Shown here in pieces: positions 1,341 to 11,749 of a stretch of 41,768 nt of DNA. A model generated the notes under the pieces. The model was not told the origin of the DNA and ran no database searches. It worked only from the letters and a program-made list of their open reading frames with translations. The position numbers and the translations under genes were made by a program. The stretch is from Candidatus Thorarchaeota archaeon MP8T_1 (GTDB taxonomy: Archaea; Asgardarchaeota; Thorarchaeia; Thorarchaeales; Thorarchaeaceae). The DNA lies in contig PJER01000022.1 of assembly GCA_002825465.1 (NCBI GenBank), positions 1-41,768 of the forward strand. The letters are read 5' to 3'. The stretch's first letter is position 1. Each line of letters begins with the position of its first letter.

Positions 1341-2663
1341 TTACCTGAATCTGAGATGTTCATACGCTGGGGTATCATTCTCAAAGGCAAAGTGTACTTT
1401 CTGGTAGTCCTTACGGAACTCGCTGATATCAGCAGCTACCTTATTCACATCTTCGCCTTTCATCACGACTCTGGTCATGAAGTCAGCAATAGCATCCATC
1501 TCTGACTCTTTCATTCCTAGTCTAGTCATCTCACTTGTACCTAAACGGATACCACCAGGTGTTCTGTAATCTCTACCTCTCTTCTTATCCCATGGGAGGA
1601 GGTTTCGATTGATGATGATATTAGCATCTTCAAGGGTCTCTTCACACTTTGCTCCGTCGCCTAATGGAGTCTCAGTGACATCAACAAGGACCACATGAGA
1701 CTGGGTGAATCCCTTATGCTCAGCTATTACTTGCCAGCCACGCTCGTGGAGTGATTGTGCAAGAGCCTTGGCATTCTTCATAATCTGTTGACTGTAATCC
1801 TTTCCAAACTCAATCATCTCTGCTAATGCAATAGCAAGACCTGCAACGTTGTGAAGATGGTGATTACTGAGCAGACCAGGGAATGATGCTCTCTTAATTT
1901 TATCAGCCCATTCTTCTTTAGCAAGAACCATCGCATGTTGTGGTCCAGGAAGGGTCTTGTGAGTGGAGGTTGTCATCATGTCTGCACCTTCACGCAAGGG
2001 ATCCTGGAAGAAACCTGATGCAATTAGACCTGAAACATGTGCTGAGTCGTATCCAATACTCATTCCATACTCATCAGCAATCTCCCTGAACTCCTTCACT
2101 GGGTGTGGGAATGGGAATACACTACCACCAAACAAAAGGAATTTGATCTCATCCCCCTTCTCTTGGAGTTTCCTAATTTCATCAATACTTGCGTCCACAT
2201 CAATATTGAACTCATGGTCATCAAAGATCCAGTTTCTTACTTTGTGACCTCTGATTGCACCTGCTGTTCCACCTAGATTAGCACGTGCATGAGAGATATG
2301 TCCACCATGGGCAATTGATAATGCCATCATTCTCTCAGTGGGTTCCATTGCTGCAGTGTACATTGCCAGATTAGCTACAACACCTGATACTGGTCTTACA
2401 TCAGCAAATTCTGCTCTGTAGAGTTTTTTGGCTAGATCAATGGTGATTAGTTCAACTTCATCTATGTATTTACAACCTGCATAGACTCGCTCACCAGGCC
2501 ATCCTTCTGCATAACGGTCTCTGAAGTCACAAACTATTGCAGACCTCACTGCTGGTGATGATACATTCTCACTGGCAATGAGATTAATTGTGTTCTGCAT
2601 CCAACGATCATGACTTTCCAATTTTTCAAACACTGAATCGTACAATTTCTTATGGTCGCTCAT
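1341..2663 (-). CDS. glyA: Serine hydroxymethyltransferase
   Basis: A PLP enzyme interconverting serine and glycine and passing the one-carbon unit to a folate or tetrahydromethanopterin carrier. At 440 residues it is full length. The PLP lysine is Lys236 in TTSTHKTLPGPQ, and the cofactor Asp is in YDSAHVSG near residue 206. The family segment ENVSSPAVR is near residue 32. Most SHMTs read GPR after the lysine motif; this one reads GPQ. ATG at 2663 follows GGAGG at 2672-2676. The MazG-like gene lies 41 nt downstream, probably in one transcript. Confidence 0.95.
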   Translation of the reverse strand: MSDHKKLYDSVFEKLESHDRWMQNTINLIASENVSSPAVRSAIVCDFRDRYAEGWPGERVYAGCKYIDEVELITIDLAKKLYRAEFADVRPVSGVVANLAMYTAAMEPTERMMALSIAHGGHISHARANLGGTAGAIRGHKVRNWIFDDHEFNIDVDASIDEIRKLQEKGDEIKFLLFGGSVFPFPHPVKEFREIADEYGMSIGYDSAHVSGLIASGFFQDPLREGADMMTTSTHKTLPGPQHAMVLAKEEWADKIKRASFPGLLSNHHLHNVAGLAIALAEMIEFGKDYSQQIMKNAKALAQSLHERGWQVIAEHKGFTQSHVVLVDVTETPLGDGAKCEETLEDANIIINRNLLPWDKKRGRDYRTPGGIRLGTSEMTRLGMKESEMDAIADFMTRVVMKGEDVNKVAADISEFRKDYQKVHFAFENDTPAYEHLRFR

Positions 2664-3775: not shown

Positions 3776-3881
3776 GGGCCAGTGGCTAAGCCAGGCATAG
3801 CGACAGTACACGAAGGACCCTCCTTGTGTGTTGAAGCTCTTAACTTGTTGGTCGGGGGTTCAAATCCCCCCTGGCCCGCCA
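3776..3881 (+). tRNA. tRNA-Lys (anticodon CTT), with a 29-nt non-canonical intron and encoded CCA
   Basis: The acceptor stem is GGGCCAG (3776-3782) with CTGGCCC (3871-3877), then G and CCA. The D stem is GCTA/TAGC (3785-3788, 3798-3801) with GG in its loop. The T arm is GGGGG TTCAAAT CCCCC (3854-3870). A continuous reading has no anticodon stem. Removing 29 nt (3806-3834, or equivalently 3805-3833) joins ACA and AG to give a perfect ACAAG/CTTGT stem around the loop CTCTTAA, which is the lysine CTT loop. The intron thus lies in the 5' strand of the anticodon stem, near positions 29/30, not at the usual 37/38. It folds as a hairpin, AAGGA CCC TCCTT extended by ACAC/GTGT. Confidence 0.9.
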
Positions 3882-3967
3882 TGATCTATTGAGATTCATT
3901 CATCTCCTTTTCATACCATAGTTCACAGGCATCTTTGCGAGATAGTGATTTGAAATATCTCTAAAAC

Positions 3968-4960
3968 ATGGCGTTTATCAAAAACGAGATATATTTAGCG
4001 AATTTTGTCTTCTTCATCAATGTTTTCGGAGCGGGGACTATGTTTTTACTATTCTTGTCTATAATCGTTTCAATCATTGCTATCTGGTTTATGTTTCCGA
4101 GAATTCGCAAACGTAGCCAATATGCGAAAATGGGAAGAGAATGGCATAATCTCCTGCAAAAACATCCCCATTTTTCCGCAAAAGGAACTGGATATCCTCT
4201 TGACGTGGAATTTCGTTATGCTGGACCAGAGGATGAGAACTTGAGAAAGCTGCGTGAAACCTTTGATTTGGATTCCATAGCTGGTGAGGGATCAGAAGTA
4301 GAAAGAATCATCAATTTAATGACTTGGGTATACCAATTATCAGGACACGAGAATGAACCTGAATTTCCTGAGGAACTCAATGCAATCACGTTTATTCGTA
4401 AGGCAACCGACGAGGGTATGCAGCTAAACTGTTACATGAAGACAGTGATTTTGAACGAGGTATATCTCTCCATGGGAATTACTTCTCGCCATACGCACCT
4501 TTTGCCGCACTCCAATGAGGAGCAGGAGAGTCATTTTGTGACATCAGTATATTCGAAAGAGCTTAGAAAATGGATACTGATGGACCCAGACTTTGGTTTA
4601 TATTTGATCGATGAAAAACATTCTATCCTTGGTGTGAGTGAGATTAGAGAACGTTTAATCACAGGTGACACATTGAATTTGATGCATGTCGGTCGAAGCC
4701 GTTTCGAAGAGGTAAGGCTTAAGCTGAGCAATTTCATCTTGGGTGTTAGTTATCCTTGGTTCCTTTCTGCATTCATATTCAAGATTCGTTGCCCTCGTGT
4801 CAGTACATTTGGCCAGGATAATTTACCAGCAAGAGAGTACTATGAATTGATTCCAGATGGATACAATGCATATCATCTACATGAACCTACTACGACTGCA
4901 CGAGGTAACAAGATTTTCTACATGAATGATGAAAGACAATTCTGGTCGAATGTAAATTGA
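3968..4960 (+). CDS. Membrane-anchored transglutaminase-like (papain-fold) protein
   Basis: A 330-residue protein with a hydrophobic N-terminus (about residues 10-44, one or two helices), a basic stop (RIRKRS) and a transglutaminase-like domain over about 100-225. The Cys-His-Asp triad can be placed at Cys155 (MQLNC), His189 (ESHFVTS) and Asp206 (LMDPDFG). Such domains act as proteases, amidases or cross-linking enzymes, so the reaction is open. ATG 3968 has no Shine-Dalgarno. The gene starts 86 bp after tRNA-Lys, and its stop TGA ends 1 bp before a decayed copy of the tRNA 3' end. That placement suggests it arrived as cargo of an element integrated at the tRNA. Confidence 0.7.
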   Translation: MAFIKNEIYLANFVFFINVFGAGTMFLLFLSIIVSIIAIWFMFPRIRKRSQYAKMGREWHNLLQKHPHFSAKGTGYPLDVEFRYAGPEDENLRKLRETFDLDSIAGEGSEVERIINLMTWVYQLSGHENEPEFPEELNAITFIRKATDEGMQLNCYMKTVILNEVYLSMGITSRHTHLLPHSNEEQESHFVTSVYSKELRKWILMDPDFGLYLIDEKHSILGVSEIRERLITGDTLNLMHVGRSRFEEVRLKLSNFILGVSYPWFLSAFIFKIRCPRVSTFGQDNLPAREYYELIPDGYNAYHLHEPTTTARGNKIFYMNDERQFWSNVN

Positions 4961-4961
4961 T

Positions 4962-4984
4962 TTCAAATCACCCCTGACCCGCCA
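4962..4984 (+). repeat. Decayed tRNA-Lys 3'-end copy 1
   Basis: TTCAAATC is followed by CCCCTG and CCCGCCA, matching the T loop, acceptor strand and CCA of tRNA-Lys (3859-3881) at 21 of 23 positions without gaps. ATCT follows at the same offset in both places. No D arm or anticodon arm precedes it, because the coding sequence of the previous gene runs to 4960. Confidence 0.7.
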
Positions 4985-5015
4985 CTATCTTCTTTCATAT
5001 TGTTTACTATGAATA

Positions 5016-5573
5016 TCAACTACCAACTTCTCTACCTGTTAGTCTAGCAGAATCCAGAATGTCTGGATAGTTTTCTACTGCTCCTTTTTTTCCAATACCA
5101 GAGGCAAGAATCGTTCTTACATGAATCATTCCAAGATAGGGGATAACTCTCTCTATCATGTCTTTTGTAGGACCGTAATTATACTCCCCTGCACCTCCTG
5201 ATGGGATTACCAAGACTATCTTTTTTCCTTTGAATTGACTACGGTCGTTTACACTATACCATCGGTCCAAGAAGGCTTTGAACTGGGCGGTAGGTCCCCA
5301 CCAATAGACAGGTGTTCCTAGAATCCAGATATCACTATCGAACATTAGAGTCAGGAGATCGTTCATATCATCTTTATGAATGCATGAACCAGTCTTAGTG
5401 CAGGAATTGCATGCCTTACAAGGAGCAATATTTAGGTCTTGAAGGATGATTTTTCGAGATATGGCTCCAGCATCTTTAGCCCCTTCAATGATACTATCAA
5501 TAATCAACTCTGTATTTCCATTGCGACGTGGACTACCAACTATTGCAATAATTTGCTTGTCATTCTTAGTCAC
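5016..5573 (-). CDS. Iron-sulfur flavoprotein / NADPH-dependent FMN reductase family
   Basis: A 185-residue flavodoxin-fold protein. The phosphate loop of the FMN site is GSPRRNGNT (residues 13-21). Cys52, Cys55, Cys58 and Cys64 form the compact CX2CX2CX5C motif that binds a [4Fe-4S] cluster in archaeal iron-sulfur flavoproteins. GTPVYWWGPTAQFKAFLDR is the usual flavin-side segment. It probably carries electrons between ferredoxin-like donors and small acceptors in the cytoplasm; the partner is unknown. The gene lies between tRNA 3'-end copies 1 and 2, opposite in orientation to the tRNA. Confidence 0.85.
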   Translation of the reverse strand: MTKNDKQIIAIVGSPRRNGNTELIIDSIIEGAKDAGAISRKIILQDLNIAPCKACNSCTKTGSCIHKDDMNDLLTLMFDSDIWILGTPVYWWGPTAQFKAFLDRWYSVNDRSQFKGKKIVLVIPSGGAGEYNYGPTKDMIERVIPYLGMIHVRTILASGIGKKGAVENYPDILDSARLTGREVGS

Positions 5574-5672
5574 CTACATACCTCCTGATGTAACAATTCG
5601 TCTTTGACAATCCTCCGGTTTGGTTGATAGACTCACTCCCAATTAAGCGTGGATTTCTAAGCAAGATTTCTG

Positions 5673-5698
5673 AAGGGAAAAATCCCCTTGGCCCACCA
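5673..5698 (+). repeat. Decayed tRNA 3'-end copy 2
   Basis: The sequence reads AAGGG, a 7-nt A-rich loop, CCCTT, then GGCCCACCA. The T-arm-like stem of 5 bp with a 7-nt loop still folds, and TGGCCC and CCAT match tRNA-Lys (3871-3882). CTATT follows in both places. No tRNA body precedes it. Confidence 0.5.
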
Positions 5699-5705
5699 TC
5701 TATTT

Positions 5706-6452
5706 CTATGGATTTCTAAAAATATACACTGCCCAGTTGATAGTATCTCTGCCCCACCTTAGATAGAGTTCTTTCTCCATCTTTGTCTTTTCAAGAAGTT
5801 CCTGATTGTCTGAATCATCCCTATGTGATTGGATATAATTATCAACAGCCCACCACTGAAGAGTTTCATAGTGATCCCAATCATCTTTGTTAGATACAAG
5901 TGTAAAGAGGCAAGAGAGTCCAATCTCTTCACCTTGGTATACATTCTCTTTATGTGAACGAGAAAACTCACGAGTAATACCAGCAGCTTCAAGATATTCA
6001 GTGTCAGGTTCTTTCAACCAAAAAGGCTCACCAGCAATCACAAGACCTCCAGGTTTTGTCATTTTCTTAAGGGCTCTGAGAGTTCCAATGTGATTCTCGA
6101 AGATCCAGCTTGCCCCAATACACATCGCCGCATCGAATAGTTCACCAGATGCAGGTTGATATTTCGCACCATCTAATTCGATGAAAGTTAAATCAGTTTC
6201 AGAGGCTCTTTGATGGTGTTTTTCTTTAGAGTCTTTGATAAAAAACGGAGAAATATCAACTCCTACACCTGAGATTCCGTATTTTTCTGCCAGTCTGACT
6301 AAGACCTCTCCCTTTCCACATGCGATGTCAAGAACTCGTGAATCTTTTGATAGACTGAGTAAGTTACAGAATCGTTCGAATTTCTCATCAATCATTGGAT
6401 TACAGAAACTATGATGCTTGTGTGTAACATCAAAATACTTCCATCTGTCCAT
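5706..6452 (-). CDS. Class I SAM-dependent methyltransferase
   Basis: A 248-residue Rossmann-fold methyltransferase. Motif I is VLDIACGKGEV (residues 40-50) and the acidic end of strand 2 is GVGVDIS. A UbiE-like core follows, with the post-motif segment FDAAMCIGAS and a loop KMTKPGGLVIAGEPFW. An aromatic-rich C-terminal region (QWWAVDNYI) may shape the substrate site. The substrate, small molecule or protein, cannot be inferred. The gene lies alone between tRNA 3'-end copies 2 and 3, on the strand opposite to the tRNA, with its stop 8 bp from copy 2. Confidence 0.85.
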   Translation of the reverse strand: MDRWKYFDVTHKHHSFCNPMIDEKFERFCNLLSLSKDSRVLDIACGKGEVLVRLAEKYGISGVGVDISPFFIKDSKEKHHQRASETDLTFIELDGAKYQPASGELFDAAMCIGASWIFENHIGTLRALKKMTKPGGLVIAGEPFWLKEPDTEYLEAAGITREFSRSHKENVYQGEEIGLSCLFTLVSNKDDWDHYETLQWWAVDNYIQSHRDDSDNQELLEKTKMEKELYLRWGRDTINWAVYIFRNP

Positions 6453-6505
6453 TTTTTCTAACCTCGTATTGATTGATTCTAGGAAACATTATGAAAAATA
6501 TATCC

Positions 6506-6533
6506 AAGGGTTCAAATCCCTTCTAACCTGCCA
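6506..6533 (+). repeat. Decayed tRNA 3'-end copy 3 (intact T arm, acceptor strand and CCA)
   Basis: AAGGG TTCAAAT CCCTT forms a perfect T arm, followed by CTAACCT, G and CCA. Thirteen bases around the T loop are identical to tRNA-Lys, but the T stem and acceptor strand differ, so the source may be another tRNA. The 5' acceptor partner AGGTTAG is absent from the 100 bases upstream, so this is not a complete tRNA gene. It lies in the 233-bp gap between the methyltransferase and the aminotransferase, which holds nothing else I recognise. Confidence 0.6.
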
Positions 6534-6685
6534 TACACTCTACTTCTGTTGTATTAATGATGATTTTAACAATGGTTATAGGCAAATTTGTCATTTATAT
6601 TTGTGAAACAGTCGGATACAAGGAAACCGTGAATAAATTTCCACATACCCGATGGAAAATATTGCTTTTTGGAGATGCAGATACA

Positions 6686-8101
6686 ATGTCAGATGATAAG
6701 TTTAGAGACCTTCACCTGTCAAATTCAGCGATAATCCATGTAAAACCTCCAGGTCCTCTATCAAGAGAGATATTACTGAAGCAAGATCGTGCTGAAAGCG
6801 CAGCAGTATCCTATCCCAAAGCAATTCCAGTTGCTTTCGCAGAGGGAAAAGGTGCAACACTCAAAGATGTTGATGGAAACATCTACATTGACTTTTTCGC
6901 AGGGGCTGGTGTTCTAAATGTGGGCCACTGTAACCCAGAGATTGTCGAAGCCGCGAAGGAGCAAATGGGACAACTAACGCACACGTTAGATTTTCCAACG
7001 CCTATTAGAATGGAAATGATAGATGAACTACTCTCAGTCCTCCCAACGAAATTGAAGAATAATGCCAAGCTCCTTTTTGTTGCTCCTACAGGCTCAGATA
7101 CAGTAGAATCCGCGATGAAACTAGCCAAGTTTAACACAGGTAGGATAGGAATGATTTCCTTTGAAGGAGCGTACCATGGGATGACTGCCGGTGCAATAAC
7201 TCTGACAGCAAACAAATCACTGAAACAGAGCTTGATTCCAATGATTCCTGAGGTACACTTCGTACCATATGCGTACTGCTATCGTTGTCCTTTTGGACAA
7301 GATTATGCAGAATGCAATCTTGAATGTGCAAAGTATCTCGAACATGTATTAGAGGATCCCAAGTCGGGTGTTGTTGACCCAGCTGCCATCATTATAGAAG
7401 CAGTCCAAGGTGAAGGAGGATCGCTTCCAGCTCCAATTGAATACCTCAAAGAGGTCAAGCGAATTTCAAGTGAATACTGTATTCCTCTCATATTAGACGA
7501 GATTCAGGCTGGTATGGGAAGGACTGGAAAGATGTGGGCATACCAACACGCAGGAATAATCCCTGATATTATGACCATCTCAAAGGGAATCGGAGGCGGT
7601 CTTCCATTATCGGTCTTGGTCTTTGATGAGGCTCTTGACACATGGGAAAAGGGAGCCCATGTAGGAACATTCAGAGGCAATGTAGTGGCTTTAGCAGCGG
7701 GAGTAGCATCTTTGAGATTCATCAAGAAACATAAGCTTTGGAGACACGCATCTCGTCTAGGTGATGACATATTTCTTCCATGGATGGTTGAATTACTAGA
7801 TGACTGCAAGTTTATTGGAGATATTCGTGGTAAGGGTCTGATGTTAGGTATTGAATTTGTTAAGGATAAAAAGACCAAAACACCTTGGCCTGAGTTTGCA
7901 AAGAAGGTACGAACAGCCTGCTACCAGAGAGGGCTCATCGTTGAGATTGGAGGACATTTCTCCAACGTTGTCCGATTTATGCCTCCACTTGTGATCACCA
8001 CAGAACTAGCTGAAGCCGGATTAGAGATTTTCGCTGACGCGCTAAAGGAGGTCGAAGCTGCCGCTAAGTATGTCGATTTTCCAACTGCAACGCCTCAATG
8101 A
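6686..8101 (+). CDS. Class III PLP aminotransferase or amino acid racemase
   Basis: A 471-residue fold-type I PLP enzyme. The cofactor lysine is about Lys300 in TISKGIGGGLPLS and the cofactor Asp is in LILDEIQAGMGRTG. GTFRGN and the Cys-containing insert CYRCPFG...CNLECAKYLE are shared with archaeal enzymes annotated as 4-aminobutyrate, ornithine or broad-specificity amino acid aminotransferases/racemases. ATG 6686, with GGAG 11 nt upstream, is preferred over an in-frame start at 6557 whose extra residues do not look like the family. Its 3' end overlaps the convergent D-aminoacylase by 7 bp. That neighbour favours a role with D-amino acids; a GABA aminotransferase role is also possible. Confidence 0.85.
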   Translation: MSDDKFRDLHLSNSAIIHVKPPGPLSREILLKQDRAESAAVSYPKAIPVAFAEGKGATLKDVDGNIYIDFFAGAGVLNVGHCNPEIVEAAKEQMGQLTHTLDFPTPIRMEMIDELLSVLPTKLKNNAKLLFVAPTGSDTVESAMKLAKFNTGRIGMISFEGAYHGMTAGAITLTANKSLKQSLIPMIPEVHFVPYAYCYRCPFGQDYAECNLECAKYLEHVLEDPKSGVVDPAAIIIEAVQGEGGSLPAPIEYLKEVKRISSEYCIPLILDEIQAGMGRTGKMWAYQHAGIIPDIMTISKGIGGGLPLSVLVFDEALDTWEKGAHVGTFRGNVVALAAGVASLRFIKKHKLWRHASRLGDDIFLPWMVELLDDCKFIGDIRGKGLMLGIEFVKDKKTKTPWPEFAKKVRTACYQRGLIVEIGGHFSNVVRFMPPLVITTELAEAGLEIFADALKEVEAAAKYVDFPTATPQ

Positions 8102-9741
8102 GCAGAATACGCATTTCCTCTGAGTACTTTACCAGGAAAGACATCTAATTGTGAAGTCTTATCCACGACTATCTCTCCGTTAACAATCACATTTCGAATT
8201 CCAACAGGAAATTGGTGGGGATTCGTAAAAGTGGCCCTATCTCGTATTGTTTTTGGATTGAATACAACTATGTCTGCCCAGAACCCCTCTTGTAGGTGTC
8301 CCCGATCTTTTAGATTAAGAGTTTTCGCTGGAAATCCTGTCATTTTCCAGATAGCATCTTCTAAGGTCAGCACTTTCTCTTCCCTAACATACTTACCCAA
8401 GATTCTTGGGAATGTTCCATAGGATCGAGGATGAGGTTTGCTTTGGCTAAAGATTCCTGTCGGGGAAATACCCCAACCATCACTTCCTATCATGGTATGC
8501 TTATCAGTCATAATACGTTGGATATCCTGTTCATCCATGCTCTCGATGGTCATGGATACTTCTGCGGCCTCATCAAGTAGAAGTTGAAATAGAAGTAAGA
8601 ATACATCGTTGTATTCCAGTTCATTTGCTATCTGTTCCAGACTCTTTCCTTGAATTGACATCCATTTCTCAGTCTTGACTGATGCAATGTATATCCTATC
8701 CCATCCAATCTCTTTAACGACGTTCTCCCATCCCTTAACTCCAGCTGCAATATCACTCTTGATTCTTTGTTGTGTTTCAGATGTTATGAGACTTGAAAGT
8801 AGGCTCTCCATACCGCCTTCATGAACCCATGGAGGCAATAATGATACTAGTGAGGTCATTCCGCGATTGTAAGGATATTGATCACAAGTGATTCGAGTGC
8901 CTCGTTTATTTGCATCCGCAATCAGCTTTAGTGTCTTTTTGCTTGTTCCCCAATATGGTCGTCCAGATATTTTATGGTGTGCAATTTGCCCTCCTCTACA
9001 GCCTGATTCTTCTACAATTTTAATCAGTTCTTTGATAGATTGAACTACTGTTTTTCCTTCTCCCCTTATATGAGAGAAGTATAATCCATTGTAATTTGCT
9101 ACAGTCTTTGCCAGCTTGATAATCTCACTAGTTGAAGCATAGGATTGTGGAGGATAATACAGACCTGTGCTGAGACCGAAAGCACCAGCAATCATTGCTT
9201 CTTTGACATATGCCTTCATACGGGCAAATTCTCTCTTTGTTGGTTCACGATTTTCAAATGATGGTCCAGCTGCAATCCTAATTGTCCCAAAACCAACAAG
9301 CGGTACTACATTGATAGGTATTCTTGTCTTTTCTACTGTATTCAGGTATTCATCAAAGCTACGCCAAGTGATATTCAGATTGTGACCAGCAGGTGAGAAG
9401 ATGTCCAACTCCTTCTGGATGACATCAAGAGTGTCTTCATTGATGGGAGCGAGAGAGGATCCACAATTACCGATGACTGATGTAGTGACCCCTTGTCTTA
9501 TCATAGATTCGATACGGTTGTCAAATGGTATGCTCCCATCGGAATGGCTGTGAATATCAATGAATCCTGGGCAAATGACCTGTCCCTTTGCATCTATGAT
9601 CGCTCTAGATTCAGTGGAAACCTCTTGCCCGATATGAGAGATTCGACCACCACATATTTCTAAATCTGCTTTGAAGGAGGTGTTTCCTGAGCCATCGACT
9701 AATGTGCCATTTCGGATTAAGATATCCGACTCTACCGTCAT
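8095..9741 (-). CDS. N-acyl-D-amino-acid deacylase (D-aminoacylase), amidohydrolase superfamily
   Basis: A 548-residue metal-dependent hydrolase expected to release D-amino acids from N-acyl derivatives; relatives include dihydroorotase- and hydantoinase-like enzymes. The first metal motif is DIHSHSD (His64, His66). GNCGSS follows near residue 90, GQIAHHKISG carries a conserved His, and SDGWG supplies the late conserved Asp. The C-terminal strand IRNVIVNGEIVVD is typical of the amidohydrolase beta-sandwich. ATG 9741 is chosen because GGAGAG lies about 8 nt upstream; the 36 extra codons of the longer frame do not resemble the family. The neighbouring aminotransferase/racemase fits D-amino acid use. 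Confidence 0.88.
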   Translation of the reverse strand: MTVESDILIRNGTLVDGSGNTSFKADLEICGGRISHIGQEVSTESRAIIDAKGQVICPGFIDIHSHSDGSIPFDNRIESMIRQGVTTSVIGNCGSSLAPINEDTLDVIQKELDIFSPAGHNLNITWRSFDEYLNTVEKTRIPINVVPLVGFGTIRIAAGPSFENREPTKREFARMKAYVKEAMIAGAFGLSTGLYYPPQSYASTSEIIKLAKTVANYNGLYFSHIRGEGKTVVQSIKELIKIVEESGCRGGQIAHHKISGRPYWGTSKKTLKLIADANKRGTRITCDQYPYNRGMTSLVSLLPPWVHEGGMESLLSSLITSETQQRIKSDIAAGVKGWENVVKEIGWDRIYIASVKTEKWMSIQGKSLEQIANELEYNDVFLLLFQLLLDEAAEVSMTIESMDEQDIQRIMTDKHTMIGSDGWGISPTGIFSQSKPHPRSYGTFPRILGKYVREEKVLTLEDAIWKMTGFPAKTLNLKDRGHLQEGFWADIVVFNPKTIRDRATFTNPHQFPVGIRNVIVNGEIVVDKTSQLDVFPGKVLRGNAYSAH

Positions 9742-9960
9742 AAACCATCTCTCCAATGAACAGAAAGAATTCACCCTACTATTCTCAAAGGGTACTTGGT
9801 GATTTTCATTCACCATGGTGAGTTGTGGAATTATTGCTGGAGTCAACACTCCAAAAAATAACTTATTTCCAGTAATATCACTCGTCTGAAGCTCTTAAAC
9901 ATTCTTGATAATCTGTTAGTTCTAATAAACTCTAAATCTCCTACAAAAGACGAGATATTC

Positions 9961-10374
9961 GCACCCGTCATGATTTCTGCTGTAGAACCTCCAAGAATTT
10001 AAGTGGTTCTCTAAGTGAGTATAAAATAGTGGTACTAATGGGAAGAAAATTTCATGCAAGATGCGACTATTGCGGGTCAACTGAAGGAGATGATTGGAAA
10101 AAAGGTGAATACAAATTATATTGCTCTCCTGATTGCCAAAGAGCTGCTGGGATTCCAGCATGGTCATGTCTTCTGGTTGTATTTATGTCACTAGCTCTTT
10201 ATGGATGGAGCACATTTGGCCTATCTTATGGGGGCTTTTCTCTCATAGCTTGCAGCTCATTCGCAATTGTTTCATTGATTTTCATAGTTAGAGGCATACA
10301 AGCAAGGGAAAGAGTTGCCCAAAGATACTAGTTGAAGTAAAATGGATTTTCCACGAAAAAATGCACCCGTCATG
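9961..10374. repeat. Direct repeat GCACCCGTCATG flanking the zinc-ribbon membrane gene
   Basis: Identical 12-bp copies lie at 9961-9972 and 10363-10374, one on each side of the gene at 10038-10331. Similarity continues weakly (CTGTAGAA and CGGTAGAA) if a 5-bp gap is allowed. The left copy lies in the 296-bp gap between the D-aminoacylase and this gene, which otherwise holds only AT-rich promoter-like sequence, including TATAAAAT at about 10020. A duplicated target or a shared regulatory site are both possible. Confidence 0.35.
10038..10331 (+). CDS. Zinc-ribbon protein with two membrane helices, uncharacterised
   Basis: A 97-residue protein not assigned to a named family. The N-terminus holds a C-x2-C-x16-C-x3-C zinc site (CDYCG ... 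YCSPDC). Two hydrophobic segments follow (about residues 44-60 and 64-86), then a basic tail (RGIQARERVAQRY). The likely form is a cytoplasmic metal-binding knob on a membrane hairpin. ATG 10038 is chosen; a GTG three codons upstream is possible. The gene is flanked by an exact 12-bp direct repeat. Confidence 0.65.
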   Translation: MGRKFHARCDYCGSTEGDDWKKGEYKLYCSPDCQRAAGIPAWSCLLVVFMSLALYGWSTFGLSYGGFSLIACSSFAIVSLIFIVRGIQARERVAQRY

Positions 10375-10427
10375 TGTCGGTAGAAAAGTTATGCCATTTC
10401 TCCATACCATTACTACTGGTGATAAAT

Positions 10428-10643
10428 ATGGAATGTACACAAAAGCAACAATTCATTCCCGAATGTGAACCAGTCCCACATACAAAAAGAATCCCAATGA
10501 AGACATCAAAACAGATTGACGTCTATGATAGAAAATCAGCAGAACTTCGTAGATATCTAGCATCTGAAAAAGCAGTAAGAGAACTAGAACAAAGACGAAA
10601 TCTTGGCCTAGCAACAGTTCAAAGGATGTCATTCATTCGATAG
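10428..10643 (+). CDS. Small charged hypothetical protein
   Basis: A 71-residue frame with no recognised family. Residues after about 25 are strongly helical and charged (DRKSAELRRYLASEKAVRELEQRR), as expected for a coiled coil. ATG 10428 follows GGTGAT at about 6 nt. It ends 16 bp before the DUF3795 gene on the same strand, so the two may be cotranscribed. An in-frame GTG at 10374 would add 18 residues of poor character and overlap the direct repeat. Reality as a protein is likely but not certain. Confidence 0.5.
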   Translation: MECTQKQQFIPECEPVPHTKRIPMKTSKQIDVYDRKSAELRRYLASEKAVRELEQRRNLGLATVQRMSFIR

Positions 10644-10659
10644 GAGATGAAAGAGTAAC

Positions 10660-11001
10660 ATGTCTGAACATATTGCATACTGTGGTCTTGATTGTTACAA
10701 ATGTGATGCATACATAGCAACTCAGGCTAATGATACAGAACGAATGAAGCAAGTAGCTGAACGCTGGAATCGTGAACTTGGTACAGAATTCACTGTCGAG
10801 GATATTGTCTGTGATGGATGCCTTTCAGATAGAATCTCTGGTTGGTGTCAGAGTATCTGTCATATCCGCCCATGTGCAGAGAAGCGAAACGTGAAGACTT
10901 GTGCAAACTGTAAGGATTATCCATGCGATCAATTAGAGAGCTTCCTAGCTACAGAACCACTTGCTAGAGCAAGACTTGATGGGCTCTTCAGAACTCTCTA
11001 A
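10660..11001 (+). CDS. DUF3795 cysteine-rich protein
   Basis: A 113-residue protein with the DUF3795 pattern: AYCGLDCYKCDAYIAT at the N-terminus, CDGCLS in the middle, and CANCKDYPCDQL near the C-terminus, with further cysteines between. The many cysteines suggest zinc or Fe-S binding, but the family's function is not established. ATG 10660 follows GGAGATG. It sits between a small helical protein upstream and a convergent HTH regulator. Confidence 0.85.
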   Translation: MSEHIAYCGLDCYKCDAYIATQANDTERMKQVAERWNRELGTEFTVEDIVCDGCLSDRISGWCQSICHIRPCAEKRNVKTCANCKDYPCDQLESFLATEPLARARLDGLFRTL

Positions 11002-11026
11002 GAATGGACAATGTGCTGTGAGTAAA

Positions 11027-11749
11027 TTATGCATCAGCTAGGATGTGCATAGATTCTTTCCGATCTTGAGGAATTTTCCTGAAAAGTTGAATATGTGGCA
11101 TAAGTGCGGTGATAATCTTATTCTCAGCTTTTTTCAGGTGTTCCAAAAAGGTGGTCCTGCTAATCTTTTCTTTTGATGCAATGGTCTGAAGATCCGAACC
11201 TCGGGGATATCTGAAATAACCTTGAGCATATGCTGTCAGAAGTGCATCCATTTGTTTCTCCGTCAATCCAGAGAATAATGCATCTGTAGATAATGTCAAT
11301 GAACTAGCAATATATCCATCAAAAGGAACCTTTCTGAGAATTTCCACTTTGAATCCTGCTTCCTGTAACTCTCCAACCAGTTTTGTGATCCCTTCATGTC
11401 TGAATGCAATGATTCTGAAATACTCCCATCCCTTCTCATAGGTTATAGGTGGTATAAGGAGTAGATTTGGATTATTTAGATAACTACTCACAGTACCTGG
11501 TCCTCCGCATGCACACATCCTTGTAATGACATGGATATTTGCGCCATCGTCTATTTCATCTAAAATCTCAACGGATTTTGAGAACCCATCTCGTATCTGT
11601 CTGTAATCCTCTGGTTTCTGGAGAATCAATTCTATAACATCGTGCGTATCATTACACCACTGATATAGCTGCACTGAAGGATTTTCTTCAGTGACTTTGC
11701 CAAAGGGATTATCGTAGAAGGCTCTGAATACAAACTCGAAAAGTGGCAT
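11027..11749 (-). CDS. HTH_10 (bacterio-opsin activator type) transcription regulator
   Basis: A 240-residue protein. The C-terminal 65 residues are an HTH_10 domain: LTEKQMDALLTAYAQGYF, then GSDLQTIASKEKISRTTF as the helix-turn-helix, then LKKAENKI. The N-terminal 170 residues resemble the sensor half of archaeal proteins of this type, with an unknown ligand. The start at 11749 has no Shine-Dalgarno. ATATAG lies about 25 bp upstream, as for a leaderless transcript, and a perfect 14-bp palindrome sits just beyond it. Autoregulation is a reasonable inference. Confidence 0.85.
   Translation of the reverse strand: MPLFEFVFRAFYDNPFGKVTEENPSVQLYQWCNDTHDVIELILQKPEDYRQIRDGFSKSVEILDEIDDGANIHVITRMCACGGPGTVSSYLNNPNLLLIPPITYEKGWEYFRIIAFRHEGITKLVGELQEAGFKVEILRKVPFDGYIASSLTLSTDALFSGLTEKQMDALLTAYAQGYFRYPRGSDLQTIASKEKISRTTFLEHLKKAENKIITALMPHIQLFRKIPQDRKESMHILADA

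Follow-up and report, generated by a model that had tools for sequence, protein, structure and literature searches.

Downstream of a tRNA-Lys gene in a 41,768-nucleotide (nt) stretch of DNA from Candidatus Thorarchaeota archaeon MP8T_1 (contig PJER01000022.1; hereafter the window), we found a row of three single genes, each bounded on the far side by a displaced copy of the 3′ end of that tRNA. Similar rows were found in other genomes of the class. Serial integration of cassettes is highly probable in our judgement, and a tRNA-anchored array of single-gene cassettes that were serially integrated is very likely the best explanation overall. An earlier reading of the window by sequence inspection (the original prediction) had proposed that repeated integration left duplicated tRNA 3′ ends, which is supported by the cassette boundaries and the class-wide arrays described below. 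Its description of a cassette-like layout with no integrase in the array was supported as well.

The head of the array is a tRNA-Lys(CTT) gene with an intron in the anticodon loop (3776..3881, + strand), a putative attB-like integration site. Rfam RF00005 matched 3776-3878 with 45.2 bits, and ARAGORN called tRNA-Lys(CTT) at 3776-3881 when introns were allowed; a default ARAGORN run called no tRNA in the window. The gene is thus intact, as predicted. The repeated core, TTCAAAT...CCA, is the T-loop-to-CCA end of the tRNA (3859..3881, +; matrix score 35.6). Copy 1 (4962..4984, +) scored 27.1, copy 2 (5676..5698, +) 20.3 and copy 3 (6511..6533, +) 19.3. Over the 23 nt of the core, without gaps, their identities to the tRNA end were 21/23, 16/23 and 18/23, respectively; by eye, copy 2 was better aligned with a one-base gap. 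The T-arm stem AAGGG/CCCTT was retained in copies 2 and 3 (in the latter from 6506), and none was seen by eye in copy 1. The number, strand and relative divergence of the copies, including the 21 matching bases of copy 1 and the stem kept in the other two, were all as originally predicted, and matrix scores, shuffles and identities upheld them.

The scores came from a weight matrix of 20 nt for AAATCCCNCCTGGCCCGCCA; its training set was nine tRNA-Lys 3′ ends, of which one was also the window's own. Beyond the tRNA and the three copies, no site in the window reached 15. In 300 dinucleotide shuffles of the whole window, both strands included, the mean number of matches of at least 19 was 0.027, and 19.3 was reached in 8/300. 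Among 2.43 million positions from 75 loci of other organisms, 19 reached 15, two reached 19 and none reached 27. The covariance-model search suggested with the original prediction gave the opposite outcome: a generic Rfam search (E ≤ 10) reported the intact tRNA as the sole tRNA and missed the copies, as is to be expected of fragments without a tRNA body. We give more weight to the matrix made for this tRNA family and to the comparison between genomes, and the copies in the window are confirmed to be real and beyond chance.

One gene lies in each of the three intervals, so the predicted single-gene spacing was upheld by the positions of the open reading frames (ORFs). Cassette 1 (3882..4984, +), bounded by the CCA of the tRNA and by copy 1, comprises an upstream region, an ORF for a transglutaminase-like protein of 330 amino acids (aa; 3968..4960, +) and copy 1, which begins 1 nt after the stop codon. 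Cassette 2 (4985..5698, +) carries a minus-strand gene for an NADPH-dependent FMN reductase-like protein of 185 aa (5016..5573, −; PF03358, 8.6e-23) and ends in copy 2. Cassette 3 (5699..6533, +) carries a minus-strand gene for a class I SAM-dependent methyltransferase of 248 aa (5706..6452, −; PF13649, 4.7e-13), ends in copy 3 and is 90% identical over about 815 base pairs (bp) to a cassette in genome G027. Of the gene names originally given, iron-sulfur flavoprotein and methyltransferase were borne out by these Pfam matches, the former as an FMN reductase. The transglutaminase-like protein had no match in Pfam (E ≤ 0.001), NCBIfam, PHROG or PDB (E ≤ 0.1). It had 469 homologues at E ≤ 0.001, and C155, H189 and D206 were invariant in 13 aligned ones; we take these residues to fit a transglutaminase-like triad. 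Its gene was not found in five named relatives (G001-G005) by a search that had no positive control.

The window aminotransferase (6557-8101) is 78-85% identical to those of five 'Candidatus Thorarchaeota' records, which identifies the window as Thorarchaeota DNA. These records belong to genomes G001-G005 of our comparison set, which consisted of 47 genomes of the same class, one per species. Loci were collected by a DNA search of the 47 genomes with the tRNA and were then scored with the 20-nt matrix. At least one copy was present behind tRNA-Lys in G001, G004, G005, G016, G025, G026, G027, G028 and G031, and rows lay on contigs without a whole tRNA in G002, G003, G022, G024, G031, G032, G034 and G036; our count from the locus readings gave 16 array genomes. 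At 26 tRNA-Lys loci, 100,102 bp of downstream DNA contained 28 same-strand copies (score at least 15) versus one on the opposite strand, and 102,530 bp of upstream DNA contained four, two per strand. Column-permuted matrices gave a mean of 0.36 on the downstream same strand, with a maximum of 3 in 100. Ten of the 26 loci had at least one downstream copy. The row of tRNA-Lys 3′ copies is a class-wide pattern that is not peculiar to the window. Opposite-strand matches of 23.6 and 27.0 were also noted upstream of tRNA-Lys, in L112 (7368 −; G013) and, at a distance of about 1.1 kb, in L150 (G042), where L denotes loci of our survey.

Across the Asgard phylum, the core motif (at most one mismatch) was matched in 47 of 227 genomes. 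Eight regions were retrieved; in the seven of them outside the known arrays, all 13 matches of at least 18 fell within ARAGORN-called tRNA genes, mostly Arg, and no arrays were found, by a motif that would miss arrays at tRNAs of different sequence. As for copies beside other tRNAs, five non-Lys calls were present in the DNA tested, one of which (Ser, L126) probably represents the same Lys locus. They yielded one match (four mismatches), which was the end of an adjoining tRNA-Lys gene (L148), and this sample is too small for a conclusion.

Cassette anatomy was surveyed in 18 arrays picked for having at least two sites, so the counts characterize arrays and are no census of loci. They contained 69 sites (score at least 14), consisting of 11 tRNA ends and 58 displaced copies, and 51 intervals with a median length of 836 bp. 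Exactly one ORF of at least 70 aa was present in 39/51 intervals; 16 of these single genes ran with the tRNA and 23 against it. The stop codon was at a median of 13 nt from a copy and the start at a median of 83 nt, which leaves room for a promoter in each unit. According to Pfam, the cassettes encoded nitronate monooxygenase, CAAX protease, methyltransferase, beta-helix proteins, acetyltransferase, VIT1, DinB, M29 peptidase, DJ-1 and others, and a small conserved CxxC protein was also found. These contents look accessory.

After the CCA, T accounted for 45% of bases, compared with 32% in intergenic DNA, and it was the first base in 58/69 sites, tRNA ends included. Such a stretch could be expected if the copies were functional RNA 3′-end signals, used in tRNA-like processing or termination for the genes. 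However, 23 of the 39 single genes run opposite to the copies, many copies lack the 5′ half of the T-stem, and decay tends to increase the farther a copy lies from the tRNA. The T-rich stretch also fits a role as terminator of the tRNA while the cassette is first in line, which would account for it. An RNA signal is therefore a very improbable explanation.

The cassettes are units bounded by the copies. Between the methyltransferase cassettes of the window (815 bp) and L116 (G027; 814 bp), identity was 90% inside; in the outer 80 bp within the two edges it was 96% and 90%, and in the next 80 bp outside it was 60% and 65%, against 58.8% (standard deviation 3.2) for shuffled 80-mers. A drop in similarity at both edges was seen in six of six methyltransferase pairs, and similarity persisted outside the edges between L120 and L132, which have neighboring cassettes in common. 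The comparison with related genomes suggested in the original prediction thus showed homology of the third cassette ending at the copies. No relative was seen to share all three genes without boundaries, in a comparison that included no very close relative.

Gene content at tRNA-Lys varied between relatives by whole units, and the order of the units differed. The methyltransferase comes first in L115 and L133 (the latter read by eye from the sequence after CCA), second in L120 and L144, third in the window and L116, and sixth in L145. In L120 and L132 the order is methyltransferase, CxxC protein, CAAX protease; in L116 it is reversed, with the CAAX protease before the methyltransferase, and in L144 a CxxC protein precedes the methyltransferase and a second CxxC gene lies farther on. 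The window methyltransferase family (E ≤ 1e-30) occupied eight loci in 7/47 genomes, and 7/8 loci had a copy in their flanks of about 1.5 kb (in G036 the nearest was about 0.67 kb from the gene). In the FMN-reductase family, 3/29 loci had any match of at least 13. One of them is an array; this only array member is the closest relative of the window gene (74%) and lies directly behind tRNA-Lys in G026 (L117), as does one copy of the methyltransferase gene in L115. The matches at the other two loci were 21.3 (L236, 2875 −) and 14.2 (L224, 3179 +), outside arrays.

These boundaries bear on two other explanations. Tandem duplication of tRNA-Lys followed by decay, with unrelated genes falling between the copies by rearrangement, could produce the 5′-only tRNA fragments of L119, L111 and L124. 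Yet none of the displaced 3′ copies compared is preceded by a complete tRNA body (L121:2693 retains a short piece), the three window genes are from different families, and the cassette boundaries are common to several genomes, so that this explanation is hardly credible. Alternatively, full mobile elements such as proviruses or plasmids might have stacked at tRNA-Lys, each eroding to one gene. Stacking is standard for archaeal tRNA integration, as far as the relevant part of one report goes (PMC6563490), and old copies do tend to degenerate. Against it, cassettes were compact and near-constant in size within a family (807-816 bp for the methyltransferase in four arrays). In L127 the copies were all identical to the tRNA end, yet two of the three intervals had one ORF and the third had two. 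Among the proteins scanned, no integrase or phage family was found, and the best E-value of the PHROG matches for 10 proteins was 0.016. Stacked elements are thus quite unlikely to be the source of the rows.

The copies also record the direction of growth. In pairs of displaced copies from the 18 arrays, the farther copy scored lower in 60, higher in 13 and the same in four; in arrays whose contig has the tRNA (a truncated end in L144), the numbers were 33, 7 and 3. Copy pairs within one array are not independent. A count in 12 arrays, into which L129 and L138 entered without their first copy, gave 41 lower and 8 higher. Farther copies are usually more decayed, and new cassettes therefore seem to enter beside the tRNA. 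The term decayed in the original prediction understated the state of some copies: over 20 nt, three copies in L127 were identical to one another and to the tRNA end.

In addition, the copies follow the sequence of the host tRNA. The variant CCGT was found in 9/11 copies where the host tRNA ends in CCCGT and in 0/48 elsewhere, the latter including the truncated tRNA end at L144:39 (Fisher test, 4e-9). Five methyltransferase cassettes (window, L116, L132, L120 and L144) had TTC to the left of AAATCC at their right end regardless of the host intron, and in CxxC cassettes the bases at this place were variable. What stands left of AAATCC seems to belong to the cassette. Host-following copies and cassette-borne TTC together imply that strands might be exchanged within the T-loop, at about TTC|AAAT. 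Many copies start at TTC|AAATCC.

Polarized growth beside a fixed leader, copies that match the host variant and a repeated unit of about 20-23 bp would also be produced by a Cas1-like enzyme (casposase) or another integrase whose staggered insertion duplicates about 20-23 bp, so that the row grows like a CRISPR array with genes in place of spacers. Cas1 (PF01867), however, was found in 1/16 array genomes versus 10/31 others, and inspection of cassette ends by eye, without a formal test, showed no terminal inverted repeat. The TTC kept before AAATCC by methyltransferase cassettes in five hosts is a further, weak point against duplication, as TTC is common at copies. We consider Cas1-like duplication unlikely.

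A mirror-image type of row was seen in L119 and L111, in which the upstream region and the 5′ part of tRNA-Lys are repeated, with one ORF between the copies. The 5′ copies lie at 3997-3915, 4771-4695 and 6046-6008 in L119 (G034:C244) and at 10726-10646 in L111, and a similar fragment is present at 7627-7550 in L124, all on the minus strand. Several of them end inside the T-stem and one at the anticodon intron. They support the T-loop region as the putative exchange site. Near the 5′-type row of L119 is a gene for a radical SAM protein with a PADLOC viperin match (1636-2760, +; 3.2e-15). Some contig structures, like the identical copies of L127, are suggestive of ongoing activity at the site. 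In the metagenome-assembled genome (MAG) G003, contigs C87 and C168 have 59 nt in common up to CCA plus one base and then continue into different cassettes; G030:C435 ends exactly at the tRNA-Lys CCA, and two other contigs, G002:C29 and G044:C81, stop 126 nt past it. All of these resemble assembly forks at the site of integration, with strain variation as a possible cause.

Many hosts carry a further intron in the T-arm of tRNA-Lys (L114-L118, L120, L121, L123-L125, L127, L131, L133, L139, L145 and others), because of which ARAGORN misses many tRNA-Lys genes. By eye, it mostly has the form GGTTC|intron|AAATCC and thus interrupts the tRNA at the putative crossover point. As arrays occur behind such tRNAs, the intron seems to be no block to integration. 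This affects the idea, attributed to Randau and Soll in the portion of PMC3218864 that cites them, that introns protect tRNA genes against integration.

We suggest the following mechanism. A cassette would consist of one gene, its own upstream region and one tRNA-Lys 3′-end copy at the far end, and would probably move as a circle. Cassettes would enter one by one through site-specific recombination within the tRNA-Lys T-loop, with strand exchange at about TTC|AAAT. Each incoming cassette would restore the tRNA by supplying a new T-loop-to-CCA end and a T-rich, terminator-like first stretch, and would push the prior 3′ end and all older cassettes away from the tRNA. The displaced copies, no longer under selection, would then decay. 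The enzyme might be a tyrosine recombinase that works in trans and is encoded by a virus, a plasmid or an unbinned replicon; we lean only slightly towards this particular family. In a T-loop class of tRNA integrases, reportedly described by Williams in 2002, crossover occurs within the T-loop and the T-stem halves serve as arms.

Profile scans covered the three window cassette genes and 30 proteins from other loci in Pfam (most, not all, cassette genes), some array proteins in further libraries, and the nearest upstream ORF of at least 120 aa at 10 loci. No recombinase was found by Pfam among these upstream ORFs, three of which had no Pfam match, and the scans for defence and phage families gave no pointer to one. 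Resident enzymes did not track the arrays: the tyrosine recombinase PF00589 was present in 5/16 array genomes versus 13/31 others, the serine recombinase PF00239 in 5/16 versus 9/31, and Cas1 as given above (the numbers for all three are hand tallies). The SSV-type integrase PF16795 (Phage_integr_3) was over the cut-off in 0/47 genomes, with a control over the cut-off in only 1/14 genomes. Near the recombinase and Cas1 loci L151-L205 there was no strong copy (best score 16.0). In viral contigs, the core motif had 0 matches and no homologue of the window methyltransferase was confirmed.

Since none of the tested families tracks the arrays, the enzyme probably acts in trans, and since MAGs lose mobile elements, a recombinase on an unbinned replicon is our first choice. 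A novel resident enzyme ranks behind it. It is possible, and we suggest it only tentatively, that Thorarchaeota have a gene-capture platform of their own. In such a platform, tRNA-Lys would be the leader and att site for single-gene cassettes, a trans-acting recombinase outside the tested tyrosine, serine and Cas1 families would replace the tRNA 3′ end with each insertion, and the T-arm intron would lie at the crossover in many hosts.

Several observations weigh against serial integration of single-gene cassettes. No recombinase was found when only some array proteins were profile-scanned, so the mechanism has no named enzyme. Two to four ORFs were present in 7/51 intervals and none in 5/51, and 7/69 sites lay inside a mechanical ORF of at least 120 aa, two of these sites being tRNA ends. 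The decay trend was reversed or absent in L114, L127, L135 and L136. Edges were clear for the methyltransferase and partly clear for the CxxC and nitronate monooxygenase families; those of the FMN-reductase pair and of most CAAX-protease pairs were not clear-cut. One methyltransferase locus, L243 (G013:C333, 7554-8300, 60% identity), had no nearby copy; it is possibly a free-standing relative or a source. No downstream copy was present at 16/26 tRNA-Lys loci, where some contigs end within about 1 kb. The genomes compared included no close relative whose site lacks exactly these three cassettes, and the named relatives are metagenome-assembled.

The closest known systems are bacterial additive flexible genomic islands. 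According to the sections of the reports available, tRNA-fragment repeats are carried by the islands of Methylopumilus (20 bp of tRNA-Lys(ctt); PMC10872708), by cassettes of Actinomarinales (PMC7771536) and by Alteromonas islands (PMC5217437). As those sections describe them, such islands resemble the present arrays in the tRNA anchor, the direct tRNA-end repeats at cassette ends, the addition at one site and the variable accessory genes; here, too, tRNA-fragment direct repeats lie at unit ends and relatives differ by whole units. The Methylopumilus islands, however, range from 330 bp to 42 kb and contain 1 to 63 genes (PMC10872708), whereas the Thorarchaeota arrays are archaeal and mostly have one compact gene per repeat. 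The original suggestion that the arrangement would be new therefore did not hold for tRNA-fragment repeats as such (PMC10872708, PMC7771536); it held for the archaeal, mostly single-gene form, which was not found in the literature searched, a set without bioRxiv and with few subscription papers, some of them covered in part. The arrays appear to be a new variant of additive tRNA-anchored islands.

Other systems share single features. Archaeal integrons have been described, and tRNA is not mentioned in the main text of that report (PMC9668308). On the portion covered, integrons likewise have ordered one-gene cassettes with a recombination site each, the newest nearest the anchor. Unlike in integrons, no intI was found beside the array and 11/16 array genomes had no PF00589 match; the sites are tRNA 3′ ends and not attC hairpins, many lacking the T-stem 5′ half (judged by eye, with no attC model run). 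Integron cassettes are promoterless and lie in a single orientation, whereas the present ones lie in both (16 versus 23) and have room for their own promoter. CRISPR arrays have polarized growth beside a leader and a repeat-unit-repeat layout. The present arrays share both, but their units are genes and no association with Cas1 was seen, which also separates them from casposon-type insertion. Tycheposons, as summarized in part of PMC10872708, likewise have a tRNA border and cargo genes, measure 4-200 kb and use a tyrosine recombinase. In contrast, PF00589 was limited to 5/16 array genomes, with none beside the arrays among the proteins scanned, and 39/51 intervals were single-gene. Archaeal tRNA-integrating elements and their tandem integrations share the tRNA target, the att duplication and the re-use of one site. 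They are multi-gene and have an integrase or casposase, and the mobile elements reported from Heimdallarchaeum and Thaumarchaeota are either ordinary transposons or elements with several genes; none is described as a single-gene row in the parts of these reports covered (PMC6563490, PMC8813620).

The arrays point to a little-known route by which Asgard archaea collect and shuffle genes. As Asgard archaea are the closest prokaryotic relatives of eukaryotes, the arrays offer an observable route of one-at-a-time gene addition, in which the order of arrival can be roughly read from the distance to the tRNA. They also provide a defined substrate, tRNA-Lys from T-loop to CCA, for seeking the enzyme.

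The array in the window is flanked on the left by a serine hydroxymethyltransferase gene (1341..2663, −; PF00464) and on the right by a class III aminotransferase gene (6557..8101, +; PF00202). In 12/21 loci compared (by clustering, the window counted), a homologue of the former was one of the four ORFs nearest to tRNA-Lys on its upstream side. On the right, blastn alignments with the loci of 4/5 relatives started at 6565-6571, adjoining copy 3. The block from the aminotransferase to an amidohydrolase (window 6557-11749) is conserved, and the HTH_10 regulator adjacent to it in L001, L002 and L012 is on the opposite side in the window. In L001 (G001), a single degenerate tRNA-Lys 3′ copy (879-898, +; score 17.9) directly follows a zinc-finger-like gene, a homologue of which lies at 10029-10331 in the window.

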